Positions 30,627 to 56,809 of a stretch of 64,000 bases of DNA are shown in pieces. The notes under the pieces are model-generated. The model searched no databases and was not told where the DNA came from. It worked only from the letters and a program-made list of their open reading frames with translations. The translations under genes and the position numbers were made by a program. The DNA is from Torymus aiolomorphi (Eukaryota > Arthropoda > Insecta > Hymenoptera > Torymidae): contig CM070874.1 in NCBI GenBank assembly GCA_036365515.1, positions 248,497,930 through 248,561,929 of the forward strand, given 5' to 3'. Numbering within the stretch: position 1 is the stretch's first letter; the number at the start of each line of letters is the position of its first letter.

Positions 30627-30689
30627 GATATTTACAGGCCCGGACTGGCCATCGGGAATTCGGGAGAGCTCCCGGTTAGCCGCGTGGCA

Positions 30690-31566
30690 TTAGGACCACA
30701 GTAGCAAGTAGCCGAGGATATGAGGTCTACGCATATTAGGGAATTTCGTAGACGTGCAACAATAAGTACGACAATTATTTAAACAATTTTTAAACCCCAG
30801 TAGGCGCGGGATATGCGGTTTACGCATGTAAGGGAGTCATGTAGGCATGACAAAAATAAGCAAAACGATTATTTAAATAATTTTTATACCCAAGTAGGCG
30901 GGGGATATGAGATCCACACATGTTAGGGAATTACGTAGACGTGCAACAATAAGCAAGACAATTATTTAAATAATTTTTAACCCTAAGTAGCCGGGGCACG
31001 CACGGTCTACGCATGTAAGGGTCATATAGACATGAAACATAAGCAATACGATAATTTCAATAATTTTTAAATGCAAGTATGGGTTTAAAAGTTATTTAAA
31101 TAATAGTCTTACTTATTGTTGCATGTCAACGGACTTTCTTATATGCGTGGACCCCCCGTCCTCCGGCTACTTGGGTTTAAAAATTATTTAAATAATCGTT
31201 TTGCTTATTGTTTCACGTCTTGATGACTCCCTTATATGCGTGGATCTCGCGTCCCTCGATTACTAGTGTTCACAAATTATTTAAATAATCGTTTTACTTA
31301 TTGTTTCATATCTTCATGACTTCCTTTATATGCATGGACCCCATGTTCCTCGGATAGTAGGGTTTACAAATTATTTAAACAATCGTTTTGCTTATTGTTT
31401 CGTGTCATCATGACTCCTTCATATTCGTGGAGCTCGCGTCCCCCGGCTACTTGAGTTTACAAATTATGCATAATCGTATTGCTTACGACGCACGTGTACG
31501 TAACTCCGTTATATACTTGGAACTCGCGTCTCCCAGCCACTTGGGTTTAAAAATTATTTAAATAAT
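30690..31566. repeat. ~90-bp tandem array with an internal inversion, part of the hAT-like element
   Basis: Four units with CAAGTAGGCGGGGGATATGAG, TACGCATGTAAGGGA and AATTATTTAAATAATTTTTA words (30700-31080), then about five units in inverse orientation (ATTATTTAAATAATCGTTTT, CATGACTCCCTTATATGCGT, GGCTACTTGGGTTT) to 31566. The same inverse array resumes at 36758, 38426 and 56297 after each insertion. Confidence 0.9.
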
Positions 31567-32677
31567 GGCCGAATCCATCTCAAATTAGGTGGCCCTCGTA
31601 TGCCTATGTCACCGATCATTTTGGGATAAAAGTATTTATTTTCATCTCCAAAAATTATTTGACCCGTATATTTTAATTTTTTTGTTGCAACAAAATTTCA
31701 TGCGTTCAGCAATGCCGAAAAATTCCGAGAAAATTCTTACTTAGAAATAAATTTTTTCAATGTAATTTTCAAACAGCTACTGCTTCACCAGTTTTTTAAG
31801 CTTTTTAGCATGTAACACAAAATTTCCTTCAGGTTTGAGCCCTCTGTCATGGTCTGTATGTTATTTAAAAAAAAAAAAAAATACCCGAGTTATGCACTTT
31901 TTACTGAAAAATGCATTTTTCTCGAAAAAGCCTATTTTTTTTCTCAATTTTCTTTTGTCATGATAGAGGACGTAAATAGCTATCTAGGCGTGTTTGTGAG
32001 ATTCACGGGTTTTCCACTGGGATAGCGATCACTAATGAGATAACACACAAACAAATTTTTCACGCTTAACGCTTATATTTAGTGATATAACAATGATATA
32101 ACAGTCAATATAAAGATGTTTATCTTTGTGCGTATATAAGTAGTACACATGTATTCCAGACATAATAATGTTACGTCGGGTCTACCACAGAAGACCCAAC
32201 AGTTAGTTTTTTATAAATAATAAAAAACTATGGTGCTCAGTTTTGAGCCTAGATTAATGAAACCTAATAGCTCGGGATTGAGCTAGATACTGCTAGTAAG
32301 ATAGGGTAGGGTTAGGGCTGCAACATGGGCGCGACGCGGTAGAATGATTTTTAAATGCTTGCAAATGTTTTGTAACCAGTGGTGTTTCTGGTTATTTTCT
32401 TTCTTATTATCAATTTTTAATATCAATTTTTATTAGGAAATGTACCTCTCAAGAAAGGCCAAGTTACTGGCGACTTGAAAGAATAGATTTCCTAATATGT
32501 TTTTTTACTCTCAGTGTCTCTAGAGGTTTAGTTTAGTAAAAAAAAAATTCACTTTAGTTTAGGGGAAAAACAATACGGCAAATCGATTTAAGCACAAAAA
32601 TGGGGTAATATTTTTGGGATAATGTTCTAGTCTGGCTAAAGAAAAGTTAGGATAGCAAATGAAATGTTTAACTTACT

Positions 32678-32929
32678 TTGTTTTCTTTTTCTCTGGTCCT
32701 TAGCAGCTTTGATGGTCCGTTGACTCTGCTGCGTTTTTTTTTGAAAGGTGTCGGTGGTTTAACTGATTTTAAAATAAATAAAAAACAAACCCGAGAATCT
32801 TTAGTTTTATGCACTCAATTTATTTCAAAGAAAGGTATGCGTTACCATTGCACGGTAACAAGGTTAAACAACGAATTTCAAAAATATTTTAAAGAATCGT
32901 ATAGAATTGTGTACAAATGTTTGATATAG
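32678..32929 (+). other. Unrecognised 83-codon ORF in the long-TIR element
   Basis: It starts beside a pyrimidine-rich stretch ending in TCCTTAG, so its 5' part may follow a splice acceptor. The peptide contains GVGGLTDFKINKKQTRESLV and a basic tail. No domain recognised. It is in the same orientation as the transposase fragments, so it may be an upstream exon. Confidence 0.3.
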
Positions 32930-34430
32930 AAGAGATAGAAAAATCAGACCCAGTCTGAATGTAAAAGTTGGACCTCTCCGGTGGAGGACTGTGAGACTAG
33001 AGTGTAGGACCTCGTAGGTTGAGGATTGAAGCTAGAGTGAGAGTGAGCGGACGCGTAGATGAGCGAGCTGCTAACGAAAAGACGAAGCCACCTCCCTTAT
33101 CTTAAATGCAGAGGGACACTATTAGTCGCTCGGATTTTTGGAACCTCCCTCGCTCAAAATAGAGCGCTAGGATTCGATAATGAGGTGACATTATGCATAA
33201 ACGTTATAACTTCGATATTAAACAATAAGAGGACAATTTTATTGTTTTATATACTATATCAGGATAAATAACCCACTTTGATGTAATGTTTTTTCTATAA
33301 TAAATAAATTTTAATGTGAAACTTTTAATACATATAAGAATTGGGCGGTCCCAATACTCATTAAAGAGTATTTACGCTATAACTTAAAAATTAATAAGTT
33401 AAAAATGAAAATCGTTAAATGAACCGATGAATGAATGAATTTATTATATAAATATAATAACAAATTAAGAAATTCTTTATAATTTTAAACATTACTCAAA
33501 CTGGATTATTCATTTACATAATTTTATCGTAGATAATTAAGCAAAGTTATTTAACGAATGCAACTATTAGCTTAATTTGCCTATTACCCGTTTGTGGTTA
33601 CTCGTATGTATGGATAGAAACATAACTTAGTATATAAAACTAGTGAATGTGTATAAGAGACATGTTTGACGAGAATTATAAAAATATAAAATTTAATATT
33701 ACAAAGACAATCTTAATACTAAATGTATATAATAGTTTTGGATAATATAAATGATTAGTTATTCGCAAGTATAAAATAAGTTTTACATTAAACTACTTAA
33801 ATTTGTATAACCTCTAAAATATTCTTAATTAATTTTGGAAATTCCTGAGACCCCTTTTTTTTTATTATATATTTTGCATAAATAAACAAAATAGAGTCTA
33901 GAAATATTAATATAGATTGAAAATATTAAAGATGATAATCTAATTATTAGAGCTTAATAAAGAATGAAATAGATTGGTTTACTTTGAATATTATAAATTA
34001 CTGAAAGAGAATTTTGTGGTTATATTGAAATAGAAGTATTACAAAGATCTTGATTTATTGAAAATGAAACGATTCTGTTCTGTTTAACAAATAAATTTTT
34101 TTTTCAATAGCTTTTAGATAAAACGTCATTAATAAATTATATAATGACTTATAGTAAATTAAAACGTTGATGCTTTTACAAACATGATTTTTGTACTCTA
34201 TAATAATTCTAGATTTATATATATAAATATATGCTAATTAACTTAATATAAATCTTAATGAGATAGGGTATATGTTTAAATTCTAAAATATAATAACTGA
34301 ACATAACCCAGTGTAAATATTATATAATGAATTTCTAAAGAATTTCTAATTATAATTATTTTATTTCATAACCTAATTGGAGTTTATACTAATGGGGGAT
34401 GTTATTAAACATTGAAGTTTTGATTTTCCT
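32930..34430. other. AT-rich interior of the long-TIR element
   Basis: A short GC-richer patch (32945-33180), then extremely AT-rich DNA to about 34430. No gene supported. Confidence 0.45.
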
Positions 34431-35000
34431 ATAGTTATTTAACCCGAAAATGGCTAAAAGTACAGTCGTAGAGATATCATCTACGTGAGAAAGAAAAAAT
34501 AGCGCAAGCGTGGGTGGTAGAAAATACTGGAAAACGAGCGTGAGAGAGACGGGAACAGACGCGGTCGCAATTGCCGGGTTTCCCTAATTTATTGGTTTTC
34601 GAGTGGCTGAAAATTTCGATGCGGCTCGCAGTCCGGGAAAGTTATCCCTTGCAGATGTTTGGGTTCTTAGATTAGGCCTTGGGAAAGCAAAGAGAGGAAT
34701 CTTTATCGCGGCCTACTTGGAAAACTCGGGTCTGGCTAGCGTTTGCTGAGGACTATCGTAAAAGAAAGGAAACCAAAAAAACTTTAAGACACACGGCGAA
34801 GAAGGAAGCATTGTATCCTTACATAGAGCATGCTCGCGTTGGGGTTCGAGAAGAAAAAAAAAAAAAAATGACCTGGGTGTTCTTTTGAGGAGTAGAACTG
34901 TGACGCTATTCAGATTTCTAATTTTCAGGGATTTATTTATATTATTATTATATTTTTTTTTTATTTAATATTAAAAACGGCCCGATGTAACAATAATGTA
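34431..35000. other. GC-richer interior patch, unassigned
   Basis: A 34679-34888 frame is open but has no recognisable domain and ends in an A-run. Possibly the 5' end of the transposase transcript. Confidence 0.3.
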
Positions 35001-36040
35001 CATGATAGAAAGAGCGAAAATTCTTGCACAAGAAAAGGGAGTTTACTCGGAACCAGAAGCGTACACAGGCCATCCAATTGATGAAAAGACCTAAAAAATT
35101 GTTATGGAATATTATATAAATGACGATTTTAATTGTTCAAGGCAGAGTCCTTATAAGAGTGACGTTATTACTGTTAAAATAAATGATAAAAAAGAGAAGA
35201 AAGTTAAACGTTTCCTTACTCGAAGTCTGGAAGCAACGTATGAAACATTTAAAAATGATTCTTTCACACTTCGTGCGCTAAGTGGACACTTTGCGCACGC
35301 TCGACCAAAAACGTGCTCGCAAAATCGAGCTTTGTTCACGTCGTATAAAAAAATTGTGTTCGATACACGAGTGAGAAAGTGATTTTATCTTCGTGTGGCC
35401 TTTTCACCCTCGCTTCGCTCGGGCGCAAACGTCCACACGAGGATAGAATCACTTTTTCGCACTTGTATCGAAAATAACTATTTCCGAATTGAGAATTGGT
35501 CAATCGATGTTTTATAGTTTGCGACCAAAATATGTCTTACTTAGCCCCATGAAAAAAGTTTGTCTCTGTATCTATTGTGCAAATTATGATTTATTTCTTA
35601 CGAGCTTAATTAATTTCAGAGGAAGTAACGTTACAGAATTGGATGAAATTCGGTCAGAAATAATAAACGCAACAATGTGTTCTGAACAATTTGATGTATG
35701 TTATTTACAAGAATGTAAAATGTGTCGAGGCAGTAACGGAATTGCGATTCATGTTCTAATACTGCAAAATATAGAAGGCACAGAAGAAATTACATATGGT
35801 TTGTGGGATAACGGTAACTTGATTAAATAAACTGTCAATTTCTGCTTTTAAAGATGAACTTTCGGTTTGGACCATGAGGGTTAGTACTCCCATGCATGTA
35901 AAAAACATATAACGCAAAGCTACAAAAGCAGAAAGAGAAAATGCTAAAGAAGACCCATATCATTTAGTTCTTCAAATAGACTTCGCTGCGCAAACTGGGC
36001 TGTGATTCATAATAAAGCTAAGTATCCTGAAATTCAAAAA
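35001..36040 (+). pseudogene. Transposase fragments of the long-TIR element
   Basis: Collinear pieces: HPIDEKT, a stop, then IVMEYYINDDFN...KSDVITVKINDKKEK...RSLEATYETFKN (35002-35250); a 130-bp MITE in between; then FYSLRPKYVLLSPMKKVCLC and CYLQECKMC to the stop at 35828-35830; then, past the stop, YHLVLQIDFA near 35960-35995. Segment order matches the remnant at 29140-29470 (FY, VxxK/PGKKD, ELYxxFK, LRPKxV, CxC). The C-x-C and C-x-x-C pairs may bind zinc. Multiple stops make it dead. Confidence 0.6.
35351..35478. mobile_element. ~130-bp hairpin MITE inside the transposase fragment
   Basis: The left arm, TTCGATACACGAGTGAGAAA through TTCGTGTGG, and the inverted right arm, CCACACGAGGATAGAATC through TTGTATCGAA, leave a ~32-bp loop. 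It falls exactly in the gap between conserved transposase segments. Confidence 0.8.
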
Positions 36041-36782
36041 ACTCATTTATTGATTAAATAAACGTGCAATGATAAAGTACATTGTTTGACAGCAAAGACC
36101 GCTGATCGTCCGTAAAAGACATAAATAAAAAAAACACATACATATATACATACCTGTATATTACTTATATACGCACAAAGATAAACATCTTTATATTAAC
36201 TGTTATATCAGTGTTATATCACTATACACAAGCGCTAAGCGTGAAAAAATGTTTGTGCGTTATCTCATTAGTGATCGCTATCCCAGCAGTAAACCCGTGA
36301 ATCTCACAAACACTCCTAGATAGCTATTTACGTTCTCTATCACGACAAAAGAAAATTGGGGAAAAAAATAGGCTTTTTCGAGAAAAATGCATTTTTTTAA
36401 AAACAGCATTTTTCAGTAAAAAGTGCATAACTCGGGTATTTTTTTTTTTTTTTGAAAATAACATACAGACCATGAAAGAGGGCTCAAACCTGATTAAAAT
36501 TATGTGTTTCACGCTAAAAGGCTTAAAAAACTGATGAATCAGTAGCTGTTTGAAAATTACATTGAAAAAATTTATTTGGAAGTAAGGATTTTCTCAGAAT
36601 TTTGCGGCATTGCTGAACGCATGTAATTTTGTTGCAATAAAAAAATAAAAATATACGGGTCAAATAATTTTTGGAGAAGAAATTAAATACTTTTATCCCA
36701 AAATGATCGGTGACAGGCATACGCGGATCACCTGATTTGATATGGATTCGGCCTAATAGTCTTGCTTATTAATGCATGTCTA

Positions 36783-38423
36783 CACTGAGAAAAATGCGGC
36801 GTAGTAGCTACTCCTGAGGTGTACGGGAAGCGCAGAATTACTGGGGTATAGGTCTTACTCTTTTAGTCGGAACACGAGCTACTCCGAAGGGAGTCACAGT
36901 TATGCCTATTGGGCGTAGAGCGCGCGCCTAACCGTTAGTGTAAGCACTACTCTCTGGAAAGGAGTAACAGTTGCTCTTTCGAAAGGAGTAGAAGTCATAT
37001 ATCATCATATCCTATATTCATTTGCGAGAATGATGGGAGAATTTATGGAAAAATACAGAGTGATACTGCCAACGGATATAAAAGATTTATTTCTTGCAGG
37101 TATAAAGATTGTATACATTTAGAGAAATTTAGTGCACAAGTTTAGAGGTTATACATAACATATCTTGTGCTTGCAGGTTTCTATAGTTTGAGGTTAGATG
37201 CTCTAAAATGTTTATATAATTATAGAAAGCCCTCTTTTTAAAATATAATTTCTTTCTCTCTTCTTCTCTCTTTTTAAAATATATTTAAGTATTAAATTTT
37301 TTTATTTAGAAGATATCGCCAGTGATGAAGAATTTTTTAATATTAAGACTGAGAAACTTTGTCAATTTTTTAAGGGCGATATTAATCTTTTTTGCTGCAT
37401 TTTTACCGTTGTACAATCAAGAAAAAAATATTTTTACGCACCAACAAAGTATTTTAAAATCGTTTAATGCCAATGTTAATGACAATATTGCATTGATATC
37501 CACAAGTCTCTTCACTGAAAAAAATTTTAGGCTGTAGAAACCATAGTTTCGATTTGCTGTACTAACACTATTTATAGTGTTCATTTACCCTTACAGACGG
37601 CTGAAGTAGCTATTCATTTGTATAATGTAACGGCACTATTGGTCAGATGCGGGAAATGTACTTGTACAGCTCTGACAGCCGTACGATTTAGTTTTGCCGC
37701 CGATATTTGTTTGTTGACAACGCTACAACGCGAAGCCGATATTCATGTTATAACCTAAAAAAGTCAAGAAACCGGCCACATCAACCGCATGTTTGCAATC
37801 CGCGTTTGCGTATTTCATCTGTAATCAGTGTACTTATTAATCGAGATTATTTTAATGAAAAATATGTATGTATGGCGAATCATAACCTATTTAATGCTCC
37901 GACAAAAGAACTCTATACATTAGTGCTTTCAGTGTATCTTGTACAGCTCTCACAACTGTACGAATACAATTACTGTATCTATAAAATTTAGCAGAAAGAA
38001 AATCAGCCGAACAGTACTGTTGTCAGAGCCGTACTTTCAGTTCTTACAACGTGAAATTTTTTTCAGTGTTGTGTGTACGAAAGTGATCCACAGCATGTAT
38101 TAACTTACTTCTACATTCTTTATACAAATTATTTTTATTCAAATTATCTATTAATTGCTTCATATAAAAAAGAACGCATTCATTTCGCCAAACTCGCATA
38201 AGAGTAGCCGCTGTACCGAAAAAGAATAGCTTAGTACGCCAAGGACAAGGTGTAACTAGTGATCCCAGAAAAGGAGTAGCGAGTGCCTCAAACACAGAGA
38301 GTAGCTACTGCTCGTGTATAGTGTGCAACCGCTGCGCCTTTTCGGCGCACTGACTATGCCGAATGGCGAGTGTTGCTGTCATTCCGATTAGAGGTTACGT
38401 CGTGCGCCGAATTTTTCTCAGTC
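36783..38423. mobile_element. CACTA-like non-autonomous element, 1.64 kb
   Basis: Ends CACTGAGAAAAATGCGGCG and the inverse CGCCGAATTTTTCTCAGTC. TA flanks both sides (36781-36782 and 38424-38425); joining the flanks gives GTCTACATAATTCCC, a normal array unit, so the boundaries are secure even if the duplication could be read as TA or CTA. Subterminal zones hold repeated GGAGTA/TACTCC and GTAGCTACT words on both sides, as in CACTA elements. No transposase. Confidence 0.75.
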
Positions 38424-38425
38424 TA

Positions 38426-38703
38426 CATAATTCCCTAATATGCGTGGACCTCGTATCCTCCGCCTACTTGGGTTTAAAAATTGTTTAAATAATTGTCTTG
38501 CTTATTGTTGCACGTCTACGTAATTCCCTAATATGCGTGGACCTAGCGTTCACCGGCTACTTGGATTTGAAAATTATTTAAATAATCGTTTTGCTTATTA
38601 TTTTATGTCTTCATGACTCTCTTATATTCGTGGACCTCGCGCCCCCCTGCTACTTGTGTTTAAAAATTATTTAAATAACCGTTCTGCTTATTTTTTCATG
38701 ACT
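38426..38703. repeat. hAT-element tandem array, continued
   Basis: About three ~90-bp units (CCGCCTACTTGGGTTTAAAA, ATTTAAATAATCGTTTTGC, ATGACTCTCTTATATTCG). The array stops at CATGACT (38697-38703), which reappears at 56297-56303. Confidence 0.88.
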
Positions 38704-39078
38704 ATTTTCACGTTATTAAAAAAAAAAATTTTTTATCTTACCCTTAATTTTCAACAGTTATTTGGATTTTTAATGTATAAGTATTTAACTTAACTCAAAA
38801 ATAATTTATATTTTAACCCCCCCCCCCCCCCATATATGCATACCTACACATTAAGTTGTACCGTTGGTTGCACTCTTTAAACAATATTGAAAAATTTCAT
38901 AATAATACAAAGCACTAGTCAATATTTGATATTAGATCTAAAATAATTTTCATTTTTTATTTTTCTAATGGAATGAATAATAAATCAAATATTAATTGAA
39001 AATATTTTTGTAATCTAAAATTATATTAATTATAGTGCCAAGATAATAAACTACAGTTGTACACTTATACACTTATAC
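38704..39078. other. Left part of an unclassified insertion (38704-56296)
   Basis: AT-rich, beginning ATTTTCACGTTATT, with a 15-C run at 38817-38831. No coding content. Confidence 0.5.
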
Positions 39079-39082
39079 TATT

Positions 39083-39302
39083 TATGACGGAAAATAATTC
39101 TTCGTCATTTTCCCCTCTCTCCGCATTACCCCTGTATTAACCTAATGAGATTATTATAGGTGTAGACGACGCAAAAGGACGCCTAGTCAAGAGGGTGGGA
39201 TGGTGGGATGGTGGGTGGGTGGGGGAGAGAGAGAGAGAGTATCGCGAGAGTACGGCGACAAGATAATTGCCGAGCAGCCAGGGAAATAATTTATCCGTTA
39301 CA
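39083..39302 (+). repeat. 5' LTR of the outer gypsy element
   Basis: 220 bp, much shorter than its partner at 53367-54357. It lacks a ~500-bp block present there between GAGAGTACCGCGACA and GGATAATTGCC. Confidence 0.85.
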
Positions 39303-40680
39303 AATTGGCGCCTCTCAAAAAACCCACAGTTTTCGAGAACGTGTGTATAGCAATTTGAATTCGCGCGCACCCGGAGTGCGAAAGATTGCAGCGTGCGGTG
39401 ACAGCAGTTCACGCAGCGCATCAGTGTATTAAACACGAGCAATCTAGCACCGGTATGGTGGATGCATTAACCTTTAGAGGGCCGGGATTTTGTGAGGGAA
39501 ATTCACCTTAAAAAATTGGGACAAAAGGTATCTTATATCATTGATTGAACGTAGACAAAGTGTCGATAAGAGGGTGTGCCATTTTAGCGGTTTTCCGGCC
39601 CTCTAAAGGTTAAGCATCACCGCATTCCGGGAAAGCCAGCGAACGTGCATCTACGTTTAAGGCCGTTGTCGAAGATTACATTCGGCAGCCGTCGCGCACA
39701 CGCGCAGCGACGGCAGCCGTAGATATTGTTTACGTCGCGCGCCGACACGAACTTGGGCCGCGCAGAACGTAAACAAAGCGCGCCTTTCAAGCACACGAAT
39801 TTTCGTATTGTGTGTTGGAGAGAGATACACTACTCCGAATATTATATTCGGAGCAGAAATTATTTCGAGCGTGGCTGAATATTATTTCAGCTTAGGCGCT
39901 ATTCGCGCGAGACTCACTACGCGACGCGCATATATAACAGTGCGTGTTATACATTTATTCTTTAATATTGTTCTACTATGAGTTTTGAAAGCGACCTCGC
40001 AATAACAGGTGTTAATTAATAAACGTTAATTTATAAACATTGATTAATTACATGAATCTTGACACGTGTTATTGTAAAATTAATACGAAAAATTGAAATT
40101 TGTTTAAACAAGTTAACTTTTATTGTACTTAAAAATTAATAGATTTTTTTTCTCCTCCATCGGTAATTGGTCACCGACATCAATTTAAATTGAAGTAAAT
40201 TAAAATTTGGTATTACTTTTAAAATCATTAAATTTAATATTCAAACTAAATCAAAAGTTGAATTATTATCGAAATAATAAAAATTGCATTAAGTGGGAAA
40301 ATAAATATTTGCTAACGCTAAACAACGCATGTGCGAACTCGCTGTTGAAAACTGAGTATTTAGGCACACGCAACGTAACTTGCTTACTGCGATACACAGC
40401 AGCGTGGAAACAGCAACAGCTGATTGCTTGGGAACTATTGTACCCCGACAGCGAAGTTTAAAAATCGAATGCGACCTTTCGCAACGCCCTGCATTTAAGT
40501 CAGGTCGAAAAATTAGAAACATTTACCTTATTACCCACTAGCGTATAAGATTGAAAAACGTACTATATTAAAATAGATACTAACAAAACATAAAACAGTG
40601 AACTTCCAGGTCACGTACAGATTAGAGTACCTCGACGAAGAAAGTACACAAACGGACTCGCGCAACACAGCGCGAACGTA
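39303..40680 (+). other. Leader of the outer gypsy element
   Basis: Long non-coding leader, GC-rich at 39640-39960 and AT-rich at 39990-40300. No domain recognised; the small ORFs at 40207-40461 and 40289-40522 have no support. Confidence 0.5.
39471..39609. mobile_element. TTAA MITE, 139 bp (same family as 29575-29713)
   Basis: TTAA at 39467-39470 and 39610-39613; ends CCTTTAGAGGGCCGGG and CCGGCCCTCTAAAGG. Nearly identical in body to the copy at 29575. Confidence 0.93.
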
Positions 40681-42083: not shown

Positions 42084-42423
42084 AGTTACATGAGTCACCA
42101 CATAGGTACTTAGACGCATCGGCCAGCCAGCCTCCTTATCGCTCCGAATGGAATCTGCATGGACAAAGAGAAGCCAGAAGACAATGAAGATGCAATATAT
42201 ACTTTTCATATATACTTTATACATATACTCTCTTTATACTCTCTTACTGCACTTCGCATCGATAATCGCCAGTCTCTGTCGGGCATCCAACCTGTAACGA
42301 CGTTTTAAAAAATCATTATTCTAATCAACACCCTTTGTTCGATTACTTACTTTGGCGAGTGTTACCTGTGTGTGTGTGTGTGTTACCTTTCCTTGGTGAT
42401 CCACCGGGGCTTGCCACATAACT
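42084..42423 (+). repeat. 5' LTR of the errantivirus-like element
   Basis: 340 bp. It includes AAAAAATCATTATT, where the 3' copy has AATAAATC (probable poly(A) signal region), and a (GT)n run at 42367-42382. A near-identical copy is at 49066-49403. Confidence 0.93.
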
Positions 42424-42691
42424 GGCGCTGCGGACAGGATCGTGAAGCTGCAAAAACTCAGATTCTCCCTCAACCTGGTGACGGAAATCTTCAGCGAGGA
42501 AGCATTTGGCGTTTCAACGTCCATCATCACGAAACCTACGACGTCAAGATTGGAGTCCACCTGCAAGCAGAGATTCACCCGAAATCATTAAAGACAAACT
42601 AGTAAGTCTTTGAAATTTCCTATATCCTACCCAACCCTATCCTTTTAAGTGCAATTGATTTTACGTGAAGCGTAATCAAAGATAAAGCAAA
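42424..42691 (+). other. Leader of the errantivirus-like element
   Basis: Primer-binding site followed by an untranslated leader up to the gag ATG at 42692. Nothing else recognised. Confidence 0.6.
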
Positions 42692-44288: not shown

Positions 44289-47200
44289 TTGCATCATCAA
44301 CAAGAACAAGGAGAAGAAGAAATAGTCGATTATCAAAATGACTCACCTATGCAAGACCATGAAGAATTTAATCAAGAAAACGGCGAGAGTGATAATTGCC
44401 AAAATTTTCAAGAAGCTCCCCAATACAACAGAAATAACGTGATAAATTTAAATTCGATTAGCAATTCACCCGAATTACCACACTTAATAACGACAAATCC
44501 ACCTCTTAAAATTCTCATCGATTTTGGAGCCTCATCATCCATTATCAATCCAGAAATTGCATATAAACTATTTTCAAAATTCATATTTCCTTACGAATTC
44601 GAAATTAAATCGGTGCACAAAACGACGAAAGGTACACATGCGCTTACCTTTCCTATATTACGTGAATACGGTGACGACACACCTATAACTTTCTTAATAG
44701 CAACATGGCACTATACGTACGATTGTTCAATCGGACATAAGGATTTGCAGAATTTGGAAGCGAATATTAATTACAAAACTCAAATTTTTAGCACATCTAA
44801 GTTTGAAATAAATTACTTTAAAAATATACCGGACGATCATCAGAATGTTAAAGTGAATCATCATCAAGGAGTAGAATTACCAATAAGAACTGATCACATG
44901 AACGAAGAAGAAAGATATAAAATTACATCACTATGCCAGAAGTACAAAGACTGTTTCTACAATGAAAATAAAAAATTATCAGCGATTTCTGCGGTTTCAC
45001 ACAATATAAGAACAAAGGACGATCACCCTATCTATGTAAAGAGTTTTAGATACCCATACTATCTAAAAGAAGAAATTCAAACTCAAATCAGAAAACTGTT
45101 AGACGAAGAAATTATTCAACCAAGCAACTCGCCCTACTCATCCCCCGTATGGATAGTTCCGAAGAAAGAAGATGCAAGTGGAAGGAAAAAATGGAGAATG
45201 GTGATAGATTATCGTAAATTAAACGACAACACCATCGAAGACAAATATCCATTACCTAGAATGGACGACATTCTAGAAAATCTGGGCAAATGTTCTTACT
45301 TTAGTACATTAGATTTAGCACAAGGTTTCCACCAAATACCCGTCAACAAATATTCAATTGAAAAGACAGCGTTTACCGTAGAAAACGGACACTATGAATA
45401 TGCCAGAATGCTTTTTGGTTTAGAAAACGCTCCGGCTACTTTTCAACGTCTGAAGGATAGAATTTTAATGAAATATCTACATAAATTCTGCTTCGTTTAC
45501 ATGGATAATATAGTAATATTTTCGAAATCACTCCAAGAACATTTACAACATCTGAAGCTAATATTCGAAGAACTAGAGAAATATGGTTTAATAATTCAAT
45601 TAGATAAGAGTGAATTTCTAAGGAAAGAAGTTCCATTTTTAGGCCATATAATAACAGCAGACGGAATCAAACCAAATCCCGATAAGATCAAAGCAATTCT
45701 AAAATATCCGATACCTAAAACCCAAAAAGAAGTTAGAATATTTTTAGGACTAACCGGCTTTTACAGAAAGTTCATAAAAAATTACGCAAAAATAGCGAAA
45801 CCAATGACAAAAGCACTCAAGAAAAAAGAAAAAATAGATCCAGAAGATAAAGACTATAAAGAAGCGTTCGAGAAACTCAGAGAATTGATCACTAACGCAC
45901 CAGTGCTCATCTACCCAGACTTCACCAAACCATTTGCTATCACAACCGACGCCTCAAACTTAGCAATAGGTGCAGTTTGATCCCAAGAACAACATCTTAT
46001 CTCGTGTTATTCACGAACATTAAACTCAGCAGAACAAAGCTATCCGGCGATAGAGAAAGAATTACTGGCAATAGTGGAAGCATGTAGACAATTTAGACCG
46101 TATATCTATGGTAAGAAATTTACGATTGAAACAGATCATAAGCCATTCACCTGGCTGTATTCTTTAAAAACGCCTAACGCTAGACTGATTAGATGGAGAC
46201 TAAGATTAGAAGAATATGATTACATAATAAAATACAAAAAGGGTTCTGAAAATAATGTCGTCGACGCACTGAGTCGAATTGAAATTAATGCTAATAAAAC
46301 AATAGAAGAAGACTCACTCTCAATGGTGCCTCAAACACCTGACGATGCACCTGTCACACCTGAAGAAATGGACGAAATATTTGACGACGACATGGCAACA
46401 GTCCACACAGCTGAAGAAAATCCGACCTTTTCACTACCTATAACAGACAAAAATGTTCACGCTTTTAATTACAGCATTATCATAAAAGGAGGAAATGATT
46501 ACAACTTAAAAGTAAACGAAGATAAACTTAAAGTACAATACACGGTGAAAATTAATAAATCAAATGCAGAAACACATTTACTTAAGTTTTTCAAGGAAAA
46601 TATTAAACCCGATAAGCAATATGGTATCTACTTTACGACCGAAGAATTGGAAAGAATTACGTATAGAATATTGAAGGATCATTTCAATGAAAAATTAAAA
46701 CTAATCAAAACAATCACGTATATACCTACGATTGATAAAAATAATTTCATAAAAGAACTCGAGACATATCATAATCAAAATCATAACGGTATTCGAGAGA
46801 CCTTATTACACTTTAAGAGAAAACTCTATACACTTAATATGGATCGACTTATTCAAAATTTTATAAATCAATGTAAGATATGCCTAGAGCATAAGTATGA
46901 GAGAAACCCATATGAAACAGAAACATACGGCCCTATTATAGCTAGAAGACCGCTCGAACATATACACATGGACGTATTTCATTTCAACAAGGATAAATTT
47001 TTAACAATTATAGATATTTTTTCCAAATATGCTCAAGCTTATTATCTACCAGATGGAAATGCCACGACCATGATAAACAAATTGAGACACTTTGCCTCAC
47101 ACCATAACTTTCCGGATAAAATTACGACAGACAACGGAAGTGAATTCAACTCAACAGTATTTTAGGAGTTTTGCCGCATACATAAAATTCAATATCATCA

Positions 47201-47843
47201 AACAACGATAAACAGACACACATCGAATGGACCCATAGAAAGACTGCATTCAACCCTAAAGGAAAAATTAAGTATTTTATCCAATCAAAATCCAAAAGAA
47301 AGAGTGAAAAATCTTATGATCACCGCTCTCTTAATATACAATCAGAGTATACACTCTGCAGCTAACTATACGCCTTTTACACTGTTATATGGACCTTATG
47401 ACGAACTACAGAAACACATTATCGAGCCCGGTGCCGATACCATAGAAAGATAGAATAAAATCAGAAAAAATGAAATTTTACCTTTTTATGACACGCTATA
47501 TAGAAACCAAAAAGAGCAACAAAAGTTACCTAATAGTCCTGACAAATCGTTAGAAAATGAAGAAATTTACATGAAAACACATCAACAACAACGCGACAAA
47601 ACCGCACCACGATATCAAAAATTACTTGTAGAGACACAACAAGGCCCCTCGTTACGTTGCTATATACATAGTCAAGAACGCCGATACAATTTAAGAAGTG
47701 CCAAAAGAATAAGAAAAACTTCTTCTTTACAGGACAATGAAGACGGCACTAATCTTGATGCTCATAGTTCTGCTATAAAAGCTAGCTATACAATTTTATC
47801 TAACCAAGGCGAATTCTATGTAATGAAATACACCAGAATCTAA
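44289..47843 (+). pseudogene. pol of the errantivirus-like element
   Basis: One frame with in-frame stops at 45978 (TGA), 47163 (TAG) and 47451 (TAG). Protease: ILIDFGASSS (Phe where DTGAS/DSGAS is usual). RT: VIDYRKLND, FSTLDLAQGFHQIPV, FGLENAPATFQ, and FVYMDNIVIFS at the catalytic loop, where YxDD has become YMDN. RNase H: TTDASNLAIGAV, stop, then [10 protein letters not shown]. Integrase: H-x3-H (HQNHNGIRE) with [19 protein letters not shown] and the Glu in [12 protein letters not shown], so the DDE residues are visible. The lost loop Asp plus stops argue against activity of this copy. Confidence 0.93.
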
Positions 47844-47851
47844 AAATAATA

Positions 47852-49087
47852 ATGCCATCAAACATGAGAACGAAGAGAGGGTTAATAAACGGATTAGGCA
47901 CAGCTATAAAATACATTTTTGGGAACCCAGATGCAAACGATTTAGAAAAGATAAACAACTACTTAAATTCTCTACAAAATCAACAACAGGAAAATATATT
48001 TACTTTAAATAAGTCAATAAGCATAATAAATACGATAAGTAAACAAATAAATAACAACACGATTATAATTAATACAAATTTAAAAGACATGTGGAAAAAT
48101 GTAAATGACCAAACTTTGCAATCAAATCTATTTGAAGCGATCATGACTCTCATAATCCAGGAGCAACATTTTCTCGGATTACTTAATAAAATTAAAAGAT
48201 CATTTATTTTCAATGAACAAATATTTGACTTAGAATTGTTAACATATGACCAAATGTCGGATATATGTGTACATTTATTGGCAATCTACTCTCAGAAAGA
48301 GTTAATATTACACTACCATAATTTGCTAGATTTTCGCTTTGCTCAGGGATCAATTGCATTCACATAAAATCTTATTGTATACACCATCAAAATCCCTATC
48401 CTTACTCCTATCGAATTTTCACTCCATCAAAGACTTGCTATAATCAATTACAACAATCAGACAGAAGTTATCACCACGCCATGGAGTTTGACCGGGACAT
48501 CTATAAAACTATTTGCTAATAAGTGCCGACAGATGTATGAAAAGAATTTTTTATGTCAACAAATTATAACGGAAAGAGTCAAACCGATTATCATTTCAAT
48601 TAGTCCACCTTTAATACTGACATACAAATTATCTGAAAATTTAACGCTAGTATCGAGTAATTATCCGATCAAGGTTAAACATGATAATGACCAATTGATG
48701 ATCCGAGGAACATATGAAATACAAGGAAATGATGTACAAGTACAGGGATACCGACTTGACGAAAACCTTGGTGAAATGGAACAATCCAGCCTAATTTCAC
48801 CTTTAGTTATCAAAGACCACCAGTTGAATTTCGAACCTCTAAAAACTTTGTTATCGCCTACACTAAATATGCCAGTTTCTAATCAAATTAGAACCGAATT
48901 CGTCCTGTCTACAAGTTTAATTATATTAGTATTGCTGTTCATAACAATTACATCGATTTACTTAATATACAAAATAAAAGTCAAGAAACAACGGCCGCAA
49001 CTTACCAAAAAGTCTAAAATGAGGATATCAAAGACGAGGACGTCATTGAACTTGGCCTATGGAGGAGTTATACGAGTCACCACATAG
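47852..49087 (+). pseudogene. env (F-like fusion protein) of the errantivirus-like element, SU missing
   Basis: Envelope glycoprotein of the baculovirus-F-like type found in insect endogenous retroviruses. The frame has a furin-type RTKR only nine residues from the first ATG, followed by the hydrophobic GLINGLGTAIKYIFG segment typical of the fusion peptide, helical regions, and near the C-terminus a membrane anchor (about FVLSTSLIILVLLFITITS). One TAA (48365-48367) breaks it. The surface subunit that should precede the furin site is absent: the frame opens only after a stop at 47801. The last codons overlap the 3' LTR (from 49066). As present, this is a broken gene. Confidence 0.88.
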
Positions 49088-49403
49088 GTACTTAGACGCA
49101 TCGGCCAGCTAGCCTCCTTATCGCTCCGAATGGAATCTGCATGGACAAAGAGAAGCCAGAAGACAATGAAGATGCAATATATACTTTTCATATATATTTT
49201 ATTCATATACTCTTTATACTCTCTTACTGCACTTCGCATCGACGATCGCCAGTCTCTGTCGGGCATCCAACCTGTAACGACGTTTTAATAAATCATTATT
49301 CTAATCAACACCCTTTGTTCGATTACTTACTTTGGCGAGTGTTACCTGTGTGTGTGTGTGTGTTACCTTTCCTTGGTGATCCACCGGGGCTTGCCACATA
49401 ACT
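49066..49403 (+). repeat. 3' LTR of the errantivirus-like element
   Basis: 338 bp, ends AGTTA...ATAACT, near-identical to 42084-42423; differences include a 2-bp CT deletion in the CTCTCTTTATACTC stretch. Confidence 0.93.
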
Positions 49404-49407
49404 CGCG

Positions 49408-50990
49408 CTACACGATTCAGGCGCATCTCGCACCGCAGTAGGCCGGATTGGCTTGCAGATTGCGACCGCATGTGGCAAGAAGATTACGCCGCACCGTGGA
49501 AGTGGCGCATACCTCGCCAACGGCAAGACCGCGGCGGTGCTGGGCTGTGCAGACCCGCCCTTTAACGTGGCAGGTGTGCGACATTACCTCGATGTGGTGA
49601 TCCTCGAGGAATTGGATGCAGACTGTCTGCTTGGCGCCGACTTCATGCGAAAATTTATTGCCGTGCTGTGACCGCGTGATGCGGCACTTAGCATTGAAGG
49701 AGTTGAAGAGCGAATTCCGCTACAATTAGCATCGCTCGCGCACGACGAAACGAGCGCTGTTCACCTCGCTTCGGTTGGCCTCGCTGATGTTGACAGCACC
49801 CATCGTGGACAGTTGCAAGAGTTGTTCGACCAACTGCTGCCCGCGAGTAACGCACCATTAGGATGCACCAGCTGGGCCGAACACAACATCGAAGTCTCGA
49901 GTACTAGGCCCATAAAGCAGATGTATTATCCTCTCTCGAAAGAGCTTGGGGAGGAAATGCACAGGCAAGTTTGAGAGATGCTCGAGGCGGGCATTATTGT
50001 CAAATCGACCAGTGAATGGTCGAGCCGAGTAGTGATGCAGCGGAAAGCGAATCACGCGTATCGATTTTGCATCGATTATCGCAAGTTGAATGCGGTAACG
50101 AAGGTGGGCACGTACCCCCTCTCTTACATGGATGCTATTTTACGCAAGCTCCAAGATGCTCGGTATATATCGACGATCGATCTGAGCAGCGCCTGTCATG
50201 AAATTCCGATGCGGAAGGAGGCGGAGGCGCTAACCGCGTTTACAGTCCCTGGAATGGGCCTCTTCGAATTTACCCGAATGCCTTATGGGCTAGTGAGCGG
50301 GCCAGCGACCTTCCAGGAGCTTTCAGACCGCGTCATCAGTCCGGAGATAGAACCTCATGCGTTTTTCTATTTGGACGATATTATTATCGTCGCAGAGACT
50401 TTTGAGGAACACCTCAAGTGGTTTAGCCACGTTCTCCAGCGCATTAAAGACGCAGGTCTCACGATTAACTGTGAGAAAAGCGAGTTCTGTCGCCGCGACG
50501 TCAAGTTTCTCGGGGTCTTAGTTAACCGAGACGGCTTTAAGCGTGACCCGCACAAAATTGCTCCTATTTTGAAATACCCGGCGCCGAAGAACTTCAAACA
50601 GTTGAGAAGACTCCTTGGGATGGCGTCCTGGTACTGCAAGTTCTTGTCCGACTTCGCGACGATCGCAGAGCCGCTCACCCAGCTAACCAAGCACAATGTT
50701 GCGTATGTGTGGAGGGACGCGGAACATTCCGCATTTGAGCAGATTAAAGCTCTTATTGCATCTGCCCCGGTGTTACACTGGCCATCGTTTGAACACCAGT
50801 TCGTGATTCAAACGGACGCGAGTAATCCTGGCATTGGAGCGGTACTCATGCAGACAATCGATGGCGAAGAGCGAGTTTTATGCTTCGCGCACGATGATTC
50901 CGGCGGAACAGAATTATTTCTTCACGGAAGGCGAATGCCTCGCAGTTTTAGGGGCGATACGCAAGTTCCGTGCTTTTGTCGAAGACTTTA
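49408..50990 (+). pseudogene. Protease and reverse transcriptase of the outer gypsy element
   Basis: One frame with stops at 49669 and 49972. The aspartic protease motif DSGASRT lies about 8-15 bp after the CGCG target site, so the active site starts immediately 3' of the errantivirus-like insertion. RT: RFCIDYRKLNAVTK, ISTIDLSSACHEIPM, MPYGLVSGPATFQ and FFYLDDIIIV, so the YxDD loop is intact. The thumb (KSEFC...VKFLGVLV) and the start of RNase H (QTDASNPGIGAVLMQ) follow. A 1-bp frame change near 50885 precedes the RNase H remainder (MIPAEQNYFFTEGECLAV). Residue order and spacing match Ty3/gypsy pol. Confidence 0.92.
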
Positions 50991-50991
50991 A

Positions 50992-51220
50992 CCCCTTAAC
51001 TGGTGCGACTTTGACAACTTTTCGTGCCAAAACTGGTAGCCGTAAATAATAATTCTGATGTGAGATTCAGATTCAGCGACCTCAAAAACAGTTGTATACC
51101 GAGTTTTTCCCAAATCCATTGAGAATTGCAAAAGTTATTCAAATATGTACATATATCATTGATTGCCAGATTTGGCATGACTTTTTTTTGTACTTATATG
51201 ATCCATTGCCAATTATGGGG
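50992..51220. mobile_element. TTAA MITE, 229 bp, inside outer gypsy RNase H
   Basis: TTAA at 50988-50991 and 51221-51224; ends CCCCTTAACTGG and CCAATTATGGGG. Pol homology stops at the left TTAA (FVEDF) and resumes at the right TTAA with VVTDHSRLKWL. Confidence 0.88.
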
Positions 51221-51602
51221 TTAAAGTGGTAACCGACCACAGTAGACTGAAATGGTTATGTAATTTGCATAATCCCATCGGACATTTAGCGCGGTGGGCG
51301 CTTGAAATGCATATGACGCGTATGACTACGACATCGAGCATAGTAAGGGTTCATTGAATCACGTGCCTGACGTGCTCTTTCGAATGCTTGACGACAAGGA
51401 ATCGCCAGACCTCGCGTCAGTATATGTCTCCGAAGAGACAGACGACGCCTGGTACAAAGGCATGGTCGCCGTCATCGGACAAAACCCCGGTGACTACCCG
51501 TGGTGGAAGATAGTTCACGGGCGTCTGTGTAGCTACCGCCCAAATCCTGCGGTCGAAGATTTGCTTGAGGATGAGAACGCTTGGAAACTGTGTTACCAGT
51601 AG
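51221..51602 (+). pseudogene. RNase H C-terminal part and linker of the outer gypsy pol
   Basis: VVTDHSRLKWL resumes the RNase H domain. HVPDVLFRM is the usual N-V-x-D-x-L-S-R region with Ser replaced by Phe. A linker follows, rich in acidic residues, and a frame change near 51590 leads into integrase. Confidence 0.85.
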
Positions 51603-52831
51603 AGAAGCGCAAGAAAGCGATGCAAGAGAGCCACACAGAACCGACTGCGGGTCACTTAGGCCGAGTGGAAACGCATGTGCGTGACACGTTCTATTATTAC
51701 TGGCCTTCGCTGCGCAAAGATGTCGCTGACTTTATGCGGCACTGCTTGATTTGTCAGCAGTGCAATGTGCAGCAGACAGCGCCAGCTGGCCTCATGGGCA
51801 GCCATCGCGCATTACGCCCGTGGCAGATTGTCACAGGGGATATTATGGGACCTTTCCCCAGGCCCGCTCGAGGTTTTGAGTCTCTGCTGATCTTCCTAGA
51901 CTTATTTACTGGGTGGATTGAATGCGTGCCGCTTCGCAAGGAGGACGCACGTACCATCCAAAAGGAACAGGAACAGCGAATCTTCCTGCGATTTGGAGTG
52001 CCCGAAGCTTTTCACTCCGACAATGGAACGGAATTCAAGAACAAGACTCTTGACTCCTTCCTACACGAGTACGGAGTTGTGCATACGACAATTCCCCCGC
52101 ATCACGCGCAGGCGAATCCTGTGGAGCTAGTGAATCGCACGGTGAACACCAGGATCACCGCGTTCCTCGAAGAAAATTATAAAGATTGGGATTTGCATAT
52201 CCTCGAACTAATGTTCGCGTACAATACTGCGACCCAGGAGTCGACGGGGTCGAGCCCAGCTTTTCTAAACATGGGCCGGCAACCGGCTGCACCCGTTTTC
52301 TTGAAACGCCGCGAAGAGCGCGCAGCAGAAGAGCTCGCAGAAGTAGCCGAGCTCGAGCGCTGGCGTACGCGGTTGCAGAAGTTGCAACAGTTCGTTGCGA
52401 AGAACGCTTCAGCAGCGCAACAGCGACAGTCGCAATATTATAATGCGTCACCCCGCAATGTTCACTTTGAAGTAAAAAACAAGGTGTGGAAGCGAAATCG
52501 CATCCAATCCTCCGCATCCCAAGGTGTAGCGGCGAAATTAGCGCCGAAATACGCGGGCCCGTACACTATAGCAGCCAAGCTAGGCTCGAATGTGTACGAG
52601 CTGCAAGACCTTTATGGAAAAGACTGCGGCAAGGTCCACGTGAAAGATCTGAAACCCTACCACGAAAAGGTTGATCTTACCGTGGAGGCAGGGAGTTCAA
52701 CTGACATTAACTCGGCACGCGATGACCAGACTGGGGAAGATCCCGACGACAACGGATCTCCCAATGACCTGGCGGGTCAGCAGCAGCCCGTACTTCGCAA
52801 GCGGGGAAGACCACGCAAAGTACGGTTGTAG
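51581..52831 (+). pseudogene. Integrase of the outer gypsy element, open for 416 codons
   Basis: The zinc-binding N-terminus has H18, H25, C55 and C58 (HTEPTAGH...CLIC). Catalytic core: D87 in TGDIMGPF, D147 in HSDNGTEF and E182 in ANPVELVNRT, so all three acidic residues are present. AYNTATQESTGSSPAFLN is a clade-typical motif. A GPY-like module follows near residues 320-345 (KYAGPYTI). The C-terminus carries RKRGRPRKVRL, a good AT-hook (RGRP core), which may help chromatin or DNA contact. No stop inside, so this is the best-preserved gene in the window, though it lacks its own upstream frame (shift near 51590). Listed as pseudogene because the parent element is broken. Confidence 0.9.
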
Positions 52832-53366
52832 GTAACGCGAACCACATGTGCCATAGGGGCTCAGGCGAGCAAGCGCTCGTGAGTACCGGCAGACGCTGAT
52901 AAGCGGAAGCCGCTACCATTCATGACAAACGCAAGCGCAACGCCACCCCGAAGTCGCGGACGGCCTAAAGGCTCTCGGAACGCAGCCACAACGAACCGCG
53001 TCGCGACACCTTCCCCCCGACGCACGCGCGCCGCAACGCGCCGAGCATGTCACTAACCCCATAACCTCGCACCTCTCTATTGAACATAGTGACCAACTCT
53101 TTTCCCCGCTAGGGCAAATCATCCAGGGATGAGCCGATAAGCCTGCGCAATGTGCGTAGGATCGCGACCCCGCAAGACTGTGGGCCTGCGAGGCACTGAA
53201 TGAAAATTGTAAAAGGGAATCCAAGTAGCTTACTTTTTCCCTTTTTGTACTCCTCAAGCCTATTGCATGGCTCGTCGAAGCTCTAGACCTTACCGCATGG
53301 TGCATGACGTCGAGAGGTTATCTCGAGCTGGTACGTCGCCCGTAACCAGCGTCTGGGGGAGGGGCG
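52832..53366 (+). other. 3' untranslated region and polypurine tract of the outer gypsy element
   Basis: GC-rich, no supported ORF on the plus strand. Ends with GTCTGGGGGAGGGGCG directly before the 3' LTR, the expected plus-strand primer. Confidence 0.7.
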
Positions 53367-53473
53367 TATGACGGAAAATAAGTCTTCCACGTTTTACCCT
53401 CTCCCCGCATTGCCTCTATTAACCTATTGAGATTATTACAGGTGCAGACGACGCAAAATGACGCCTAGCCAAT

Positions 53474-53631
<158 letters not shown>

Positions 53632-54001
53632 ACTCGGTAACCTCGAGAGAGAGTGTCTGAGGCAGTCTCGTTTTGGATAGCGCGCACGTTCCTTGCTCAA
53701 ATTATAGGTGTAGGCGACGCAAAAGGACGCCTAGCCAAGAGGGTGGGATGGCGGAATGGTGGGATGGTGGGTGGGTGGGGGAGAGAGAGAGAGAGAGTAC
53801 CGCGAGAGTACCGCGACATGCGTTCCTCTGCGGATGAGAGTACGAGTGTGTCAGTGTTGGCGCGCACCCTGCTACGACCTCGTGGCCATCTCCAGCCTCG
53901 TACAGGCGACCAAGGGCGGCCGACGCATCAGGTGTTGGGGCGAGAGTGCGACCGGCGACGGCGATTCCACGCAACATTTGTAAGTGCCGGCTCGATTACT
54001 T

Positions 54002-54005
<4 letters not shown>

Positions 54006-54090
<85 letters not shown>
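54006..54090. repeat. (CT)~42 microsatellite
   Basis: Uninterrupted CT run about 380 bp downstream of the GA run and complementary to it, so the two could pair. Confidence 0.95.
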
Positions 54091-54092
<2 letters not shown>

Positions 54093-54361
54093 ACTCACGG
54101 TGACTCGGGCCCCCTTACGTGCCTGCTGACCGCGTTTCTCATTGTTTCCCTAATTCCTTCTGACCTCAATAAATGCAGTGGTTTACCCCTTATTTGCCGT
54201 GAGTGCTTAGTTACTCTACCCCGTTCTCACATAATTATGAAATGTTTAATATTCGCATGCGGTGTGCATTGCACGGGGTGCGCTAGCCTCGCCGCCGCAT
54301 GCATTATTTGTTACAGGATAATTGCCGAGCAGCCAGGGAAATAATTTATCCATTACATATT

Positions 54362-55509
54362 ATTTTGGATATATAATTTGAAAATCAAAGGTTTAATGTT
54401 TTATAATATAAACGATATGTGATACTAACGCGAACTAAAACCTTTTTTTTTACAATATACGTTATTGTTACAATATAAATTTCTCATTGTATTTTTGTAA
54501 GTATTTTAAAATAGTTTTGTTCCAAGTCTTTGTTTAAATTAATTTTTAGGTTTGTGCATCTTTATTGTTTAAACTCTTTTCGTTTCACAATATTTATACC
54601 TTCTTTATTAAACTATAACTAGATTAAATAAATCAGATCTTAGTATTTTGTTTTACAGTCAATATAGTAATTGTAAAACGATTTTGACAACTGTAACATT
54701 CTTTTTCACGGTCACTCTATGCACCCCGTACCGCACATCTGGAAAATCTTATCTCCTCCTAGGACGCTGCGTAGCCCATGCAGGTACCAAAGATGCACCT
54801 TTTAAGGATACCTTTTCATTTCCTTACCCTGCAACAAAATATTACTTTCCAATTTTAACTTGTAAAGCCTATATTTATCTAACTATTTTAGATTTTTAAT
54901 TTCTAATAACGCAATTCGTCTGCAATAATTTTTCTTTATATTTTCATATAATATCAATTTTTAATTTAGAATTTTTTAATATAATTGTTTATATAAACTT
55001 CATTGATTTATTAATATTTTTTCTTGTAAAATCTTAATAATTTTATTCTTACAATAATTTCATTTTCCATCAATTGCAAAAATTCACATTTGAGGCTTAA
55101 ACAAATGATTATTTAATTAAGTGGCAAATAAATATAAAAATTACAAATTTTAGGATTGGAAATAATCAGAAACAATATTTTGTGTAACGTCGAATGAAAT
55201 CTTTCATGTCACTGAGTTAAAGTTAAGTAAAACATATGAATTAATAAATAACGGCGATATTTACAATAATCCTGCAGACACTTGTATGACATTAAGTTCA
55301 ACTGTTTAGTTTTACAATCTTTAACAGCGTCTAATATTTTTGTAAAATTATATTAATTATTTTTATGTAAAACTAAATATTATATTTAACAATTTTTATA
55401 TTAGCCACTTTAACTTCGCTTGTAATCAATGTAGAATCACCGTTCAAAATTGTAATACTTTATTAGAGTAAAATCTAGTAAAGTAATGTAATAGTTAATT
55501 TGTAAAACT
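54362..55509. other. AT-rich right part of the unclassified insertion
   Basis: Very AT-rich with no open frame of note, except a small unassigned ORF at 54648-54899. No family recognised. Confidence 0.45.
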
Positions 55510-56296
55510 TCCGCTCTCAATAGTTTTTTATAATGCGTAAAATTTATCAAGAAAACTCTTCAGAAAGCGTAGAGTGAGAAAGATAGAAATATCTTTCCTC
55601 TCTCTCATCTTCCTTCTTCGTCGCGCAGTATAGCGTTCTCCCTCGCTCTTGGAGACGTGCGGCCGGAAACACCCTACAGAAGGGATGAGCGCCCGCTCTT
55701 TGTGTTAGAGCACAGGGTTCTCGCCGCTTGACGAAACTGTGGCGCTTGGAAGGGAGATTGCCTCTGCACTATTGGGCCCCGCTTTCCCGCACTCTTCACC
55801 TCGCTCAACATTGTAAACATAGGAGCAACTAAAAATACTACAGCCTCCGTCGCACGCATCATCGCTGATTCGACAAGATGCCAAAGCCGCGAGTCCTGAT
55901 TTGATACCACAGCTTTTTGAGGGAGGAGCATTGTCATTAAAACCAGTCGCGCTCCAGTGTACAAATCAGATCAGTCCGAGATCTCGGTTGACTAATAACT
56001 TTTGAATAAATAGTAAGTGTAGACCTAAAACAATTTTAGCTAACCTTTCTCTCTCCGGGCTGTTATGCTTTCGGATTAGATTATTTATTTTTCGACCGTT
56101 TTAGATTTTAAATTAATAACTATAAGTATTAGTAGAATCAAGATAAGTAAAAATTAAGTCAGAACATAATCGAAAAAGTTTATTTCCTATTAACTGACTC
56201 CAACCCTGGTATAAGACGAAATTCCTGTCTAAAAAGGAGCGTAGAATTAATTATTTAATTCTATTGAAAAACCCTAAGTGACATTCGGACGTCACA
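55510..56296 (-). repeat. Possible solo LTR, minus strand
   Basis: The minus strand starts TGTGACGTCCGAATGTCACT and could end GTTTTACA at 55501-55510. The body shows a GC-rich, promoter-like middle and TATTTATTC. The right flank re-enters the hAT array at CATGACT. No matching 5-bp duplication was found at the left, so this is only a suggestion. Confidence 0.3.
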
Positions 56297-56590
56297 CATG
56301 ACTCTCTTACATGCGTGGACATCGTATCCTCCACCTACGTGTGTTTAAATATTGTTTAAATAATTATCTAGCTTATTGTTACACGTCTACGTAATTTCCT
56401 TACATGCGTGGACCCTCATATCCCCCGCCTACTTGGGTTTAAAAATTATTTAAATAATCGTTTTGCTTATTTCTTCATGTATACATGACTCCCTTACATT
56501 CGTAGACCTCAAATCCCCCACCTACTCGGGCTGAAAAATTGTTGAAAGAATTGTAAAGTTTGTCCATTGTCTGACACTATACATATTATT
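56297..56590. repeat. hAT-element tandem array, last units
   Basis: About three ~90-bp units in the inverse orientation (CATGACTCTCTTACATGCGT, CCGCCTACTTGGGTTTAAAA), decaying toward the right end of the element. Confidence 0.88.
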
Positions 56591-56601
56591 AGATATTTTA
56601 A

Positions 56602-56741
56602 CCTTTTAGCTGCGGGGCTGGTCCATATATGGACCAGCAGTCAGGTCAGCGACTCTATCTGAAATATCCAGTGATATTATGTATACATTTTACATATTCT
56701 GAGAGGTCAATTTGTACTGAAATTTCCCCGCAGCCTAAAGG
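56602..56741. mobile_element. TTAA MITE, 140 bp
   Basis: TTAA at 56598-56601 and 56742-56745; ends CCTTTTAGCTGCGGGG and CCCCGCAGCCTAAAGG. An internal perfect 16-bp palindrome GGTCCATATATGGACC is at 56630-56645. Confidence 0.92.
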
Positions 56742-56809
56742 TTAAGGGCCACGAGCACCAAATATCCCGGGCCGTCTCGGTGGCCCAGTCCGCCCCTGGA
56801 TATTTATGA

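Follow-up and report, generated by a model that had tools for sequence, protein, structure and literature searches.

The window analyzed here is a stretch of 64,000 nucleotides from the hymenopteran Torymus aiolomorphi (contig CM070874.1 of assembly GCA_036365515.1, positions 248,497,930 to 248,561,929), and its most prominent feature is a nest of mobile elements built around a hAT-like transposon at 30635–56798. It is very probable that this element was split by four insertions, designated A to D, that it lies within an outer, TA-flanked element, that the outer element also received a BEL-like long terminal repeat (LTR) element, and that insert C holds a nested series of its own. Empty sites are observed directly for the hAT-like and BEL-like insertions, as is the read-through of the A and B sites in an uninterrupted copy of the hAT-like element. 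The deepest path passes through six levels, from the outer element to the hAT-like element, insert C, a gypsy-type element, an errantivirus-like element and a solo LTR, of which the sixth is read from the sequence and considered likely. In the proposed series of events, a hAT-like transposon of 1.6 kb would have entered a TA-flanked transposon with duplication of 8 bp, inserts A–D would then have split the hAT-like element, and an LTR element would have split the outer one. A gypsy-type LTR element would have entered C, an errantivirus-like element would have entered the gypsy-type element, and the element now left as a solo LTR likely entered the errantivirus-like element. Movement of the hAT-like element would depend on a hAT transposase encoded elsewhere, and the outer element may have carried the hAT-like element to this locus as cargo.

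The boundaries of the hAT-like element can be read directly from the sequence. The left end, CAGGCCCGGACTGG, has its first base at 30635 and is directly preceded by GATATTTA (30627–30634), while the right end, CCAGTCCGCCCCTG (56785–56798), is directly followed by a second copy of GATATTTA (56799–56806). The terminal inverted repeats (TIRs) are short, with 12 of 14 bases the same between CAGGCCCGGACTGG and CAGGGGCGGACTGG, the reverse complement of the right end, and these TIRs together with the 8-bp target site duplication (TSD) suggest a member of the hAT superfamily. Five pieces of the element remain, all on the plus strand and separated by other mobile elements: the left end followed by 93-bp units in both orientations (30635–31566), two stretches of array (36754–36782 and 38424–38704), array together with right-end sequence (56296–56601), and the right end (56742–56798). 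Arrays of 93–94-bp units are placed by Tandem Repeats Finder at 30705–31079, 31080–31566, 38421–38692 and 56296–56551, the first two of which are mutually inverted, such that 30705–31453 aligns to its own complement.

The relationship between the two ends was probed by using the left end as a query against the genome that contains the window, and 38 of the 40 best matches (out of 172 candidates) start at the first base of the element. Fifteen left-end loci were examined (the window, L010–L013, L026 and L034–L042), five of which, the window included, possess both ends and an exact 8-bp TSD. The other four are uninterrupted copies of 2377 bp (L011, TSD ACAGCACC), 1600 bp (L034, TSD ATCTTTGC), 1849 bp (L041+L044, TSD CGAGTCAC) and 2681 bp (L042+L045, TSD ATCGACAC). 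In each of the four, 93-bp arrays connect the left end seen in the window to the right end seen there, and both window ends thus belong to one family. An earlier note on this DNA, made from the letters alone, had described a hAT-like element of about 1.6 kb stretched over 26 kb between matching TSDs, and it is borne out by the total length of the five pieces (1596 bp, as compared with 1600 bp in L034), by the TSDs themselves, and by the 1600-bp and 1849-bp copies, in which the left array and the right end are linked over less than about 2 kb.

The 1600-bp copy also provides information on the order of the pieces. Window positions 31080–31566 can be placed on L034 at 727–1213, 36754–36783 at 1210–1239, 38421–38678 at 1234–1490, 56303–56601 at 1245–1547, and 56742–56798 at 1544–1600. 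Stronger evidence for the order comes from a base-by-base comparison at the points where inserts A and B entered: L034 reads TTAAATAATAGTCTTGCTTATTAATACATGTCTACGTAATTCCC straight through, and in the window insert A stands between TTAAATAAT and TAATAGTCTTGCTTATTAATGCATGTCTA and insert B between TAATAGTCTTGCTTATTAATGCATGTCTA and TACATAATTCCC.

Insert A (31567–36753) has terminal inverted repeats of about 600 bp beginning with GGCCGAATCC and a TSD of TAAT. Another copy of A, in L016, is flanked by ATAT and has the long inverted repeat at each end; the interior of A (32201–34988) has no match in the L016 copy, and a stretch of about 210 bp (35261–35470) that is absent from it is a putative small nested insertion. 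Insert B (36783–38423) has ends that begin with CACTGAGAAAAATGCGGCG and a TSD of TA, although CTAC fits too. Insert D (56602–56741) is a 140-bp piggyBac-like miniature inverted-repeat transposable element (MITE) with TTAA on both sides, and the family to which it belongs is likely young, as 39 other copies at 95–100% identity were found among the best 40 of 788 candidates scored. A Pfam scan of ten fragments from A, B, the BEL-like element and the frame at 41358–41996 gave no match above the curated cut-off.

It was initially thought that the hAT-like element forms the outermost layer of the nest; however, it is enclosed by a TA-flanked element at 29857–64002, which is now 34 kb long and has its right end 2 bp past the window edge. 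The ends of this outer element are CACTGTAAAAAAT and ATTTTTTACAGTG in two other loci (L012 and L013), with TA on both sides, and CACTCTAAAAAAT and ATTTTTTGCAGAG in the window, with one substitution at each. The CACTG-type inverted ends and the TA beside both ends, in the window as well as in L012/L013, suggest a Tc1/mariner-like element. A genome-wide search with the left arm gave 74 dispersed matches (best 40 of 271 candidates scored), and in all eight further copies that were fetched (L047–L054) the hAT site is empty: the left flank runs into the right flank, the hAT-like left end has no match in any of the eight, and a single 8-mer occupies the site (GATATTTA in L049 and L050, GATATTTT in L047 and L048, and AATATTTA in L051–L054). 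If the hAT-like element were outermost after all, its flanks would have to resemble other loci because of segmental duplication. This explanation would accommodate the perfect TSD and the flank at 30000–30627, which taken alone has neither reading frames nor obvious ends, but it is extremely improbable given that on either side the flanks finish in TA and a CACTG-type end, past which L012 has different sequence, and that they recur at dispersed places, all eight of those fetched being without the hAT-like element.

Insertion of the hAT-like element into the outer element is thus the preferred reading, and L012 and L013 bear on how the pair reached this locus. These loci, which are extended versions of L002 and L003, have the same left flank as the window and carry the hAT-like left end at the same base. 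L012 and L013 are 98.7% identical across 7.9 kb and are consequently counted as one insertion. The hAT junction is common to the window and this second insertion, and the sequence outside the TA-element differs, suggesting that the outer element likely transposed while already containing the hAT-like element and that the two likely arrived here together; it is the recurrence of this junction that points to transport as cargo. Alternatively, the outer element may have been in place first, with L012/L013 gaining a hAT-like insertion independently at the same base and no paired movement. The common junction is known from this one other event only, in which the hAT right end is not matched, as separate insertions would allow. 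Both the base and the orientation are the same in the window and L012/L013, however, and the empty site in 8 of 8 other copies of the outer element speaks against a hot spot, making separate insertions quite unlikely as compared with joint movement.

Several other observations concern the outer element and its surroundings. L012 (C4) and L013 (C2) lie on different chromosomes and have inverted arms around their TA-element, and the near-identical stretch may be a larger mobile or duplicated unit. A tRNA-like stretch is seen by eye in the left arm at 30420–30500, with a B-box-like GGTTCGAATCC in L002, and an Rfam scan of 29500–64000 gave no match at the gathering threshold. Next to the right end of the hAT-like element, the outer element contains repeats of about 90 bp (56809–56968) that are related to repeats at 23012–23369 and by eye resemble the 93-bp unit.

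A further insertion, on the minus strand at 57213–63828, lies in the outer element's right arm. This 6.6-kb element has LTRs of about 1.65 kb (57213–58856 and 62180–63828) that are 95.6% alike, with a Kimura two-parameter (K2P) distance of 0.040 over 1643 bp, and it is flanked by a TSD of TGAAC. The site is empty in L012, L013, L047 and L048, each of which has one TGAAC and no insert. The LTR pair and the 5-bp TSD suggest a BEL-like element, in agreement with a primer site and an integrase that we take to be BEL-like; comparison of six minus-strand fragments with Pfam gave no pol domain above the curated cut-off.

Insert C (38705–56295) belongs to an unclassified dispersed family. A search with its right end, which terminates in GGACGTCAC (best 40 of 125 candidates scored), showed this end to be common to the window, L055 and L056, the flanks of which diverge after GTCAC. 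Comparison of the two ends of C with each other gave just weak AT-rich repeats. The hexamer CATGAC was considered as the TSD of this insert and set aside: it is no proof of one, given that CATGACTACATGACTC occurs within the array itself in L002.

Within C, a gypsy-type LTR element lies on the plus strand at 39083–54357 (LTRs 39083–39302 and 53367–54357, flanks TATT). It contains a small TTAA-flanked MITE at 39467–39620, another copy of which is found at about 29571–29720, and an errantivirus-like element at 42084–49403, also on the plus strand (LTRs 42084–42423 and 49066–49403, flanks CGCG). The errantivirus-like element has fragmented frames, and its assignment is based on matches to RVT_1, integrase domains and PF07253 (env-type) together with the LTR pair. 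Inside it, a solo-LTR-like piece at 43620–44178 (end ± one base) has AAGG on both sides and is likely the remnant of an element that inserted there. The LTR divergence of the errantivirus-like element (K2P 0.024 over 338 bp) is exceeded by two of the three values obtained from pieces of the gypsy-type LTRs (0.138 over 103 bp and 0.075 over 112 bp), as the nesting demands.

The inner levels of the nest, including the gypsy-type element, the errantivirus-like element and the solo-LTR-like piece, are present as the earlier note had described them, while its extent had been drawn too narrowly, as the LTR element at 57213–63828 also belongs to it. The claim of at least six ordered levels holds if the outer TA-element, which had not been seen when five levels were named, is counted, although several of the insertions lie side by side. 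Similarly, the proposed relative clock for transposon families applies to the nested levels but gives no mutual order to A, B, C, D and the BEL-like element, since these are neighbors.

A number of results weigh against this account of the nest, beginning with the dependence of co-movement on one other insertion and the lack of a match to the hAT-like right end in it. The hAT label is based on the ends and the TSD. A right end with a matching TSD was not seen in 10 of the 15 left-end loci within the stretches fetched (about 1.8–2.9 kb each for L035–L040). Placements inside the array are non-unique because the units repeat: the top-scoring placement of the first piece on L034 differs from that given above (30705–31566 at 124–1028), and pieces 3 and 4 overlap. 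For insert C, the boundary is established at the right end, and the left boundary is tentative. Finally, the gypsy-type K2P values are scattered, with the third piece (0.026 over 40 bp) not differing from the errantivirus-like element, and the value of 0.257 for the LTR as a whole is unusable, as the alignment crosses a microsatellite.

The array of the hAT-like element is not confined to one family. Twenty-four array loci (L010–L033) were fetched and inspected for ends with no more than two substitutions; a weak match at L016 5456 and another at L026 1311, the latter inside an array, were left out of the count. Ends of the window family are present in 5 of 24, ends of a second hAT-like family, TAGGGGTGGGCGATAT, in 7, and neither in 12. 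The second family is two-ended in L019, L028, L031 and L033 and has one end in L017, L020 and L027. Three of the four two-ended copies have exact 8-bp TSDs (GTACGTGC in L031, CTGCTTAG in L033 and GAAAGCAG in L019), and L028 has none. Between the two families, the ends resemble each other no better than shuffled sequences do (score 12 left to left and 17 right to right; shuffled left ends mean 13, maximum 22), whereas their cores align at 75.8–81.1% over 0.96–1.57 kb (L028, L031 and L033, top four alignments each). BLAST located a 36-bp turn, at the point where the array reverses, in 16 of the 34 sequences searched (the window and L010–L042), nine with ends of the window family, five with ends of the second family and two with unassigned ends; it was not found in the window, L012, L013, L017, L019 and others of the 34. 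Where a single turn is present, it sits at the orientation change of the array.

The simplest reading of these sequences is that the core has one origin and was followed by an exchange of ends or by capture. It could also be proposed that the hAT-like element does not include the 93-bp array, which would be an independent satellite entered by several transposons, as the 12 loci with neither set of ends, the long array in L014 described below, and the presence of the array in a second family might indicate. Arrays are present, however, in seven of nine loci fetched by the left end alone (L034–L042; not seen in L036 and L038 within the fetched stretch), array makes up most of the four uninterrupted, TSD-flanked copies, and the single turn is located where the array changes orientation. 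An independent satellite is consequently unlikely. Returning to a core of common origin, it is quite possible, if somewhat short of probable, that the inverted array (93-bp units around the 36-bp turn) acts as a transferable module, which would have spread with two unrelated hAT-type end sets, as cargo of a TA-element and as kilobase-size satellites, by at least three transposition routes. In L014 (G000:C1:28233500-28243400), about 7.8 kb of 93-bp array extends over 1548–9348 in one orientation with two short gaps, resembling a satellite grown from a transposon array.

Other features of the window lie to the left of the nest. A mariner-type transposase fragment is found at 3650–4411 (PF01359, E 1.7e-24), and a mariner-like frame seen by eye in L004/L010 is unrelated to it. 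Two long palindromes, at 7868–8959 (about 1.1 kb) and 15778–17044 (about 1.3 kb), match their own complements at 92.5% and 87.9%, respectively.

Deep transposon nests are ordinary in transposon-rich genomes, and the novelty of this locus is the core common to two families. Literature on nested insertions, hAT elements with tandem repeats and common cores was searched and nothing was found on this core, which may still have been published. Empty sites and uninterrupted copies from the same genome turn a sequence reading into a tested order of events. Furthermore, the outermost visible element may itself be cargo, and the order of a nest therefore need not equal the order of arrival. The common core offers a test case for the swapping of ends by transposons and for the origin of satellites from them.

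The nearest published parallel found is Tetris, a foldback transposon of Drosophila virilis. Similar to the hAT-like element, Tetris (PMC4079207) is apparently non-autonomous, with inverted terminal parts and internal tandem repeats of variable number, and the same repeats also build kilobase-size satellite-like arrays. The Tetris repeats are about 220 bp as compared with 93 bp here, and Tetris shares terminal parts with the MITE DAIBAM (PMC4079207); the core described here is bounded by either of two unrelated sets of hAT-like ends, with TSDs of 8 bp. Galileo, a foldback-like element of Drosophila, has TIRs extended by direct tandem repeats and insertions of other elements (PMC4168063). In contrast to the hAT-like element, it belongs to the P superfamily, a different element class, and has its own transposase (PMC4168063). 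Interruption analysis and REANNOTATE (PMC2517846, PMC2672092) likewise derive a relative order from older elements interrupted by younger ones; these are genome-wide methods, whereas the present analysis treats one locus and adds empty sites for two of the insertions.

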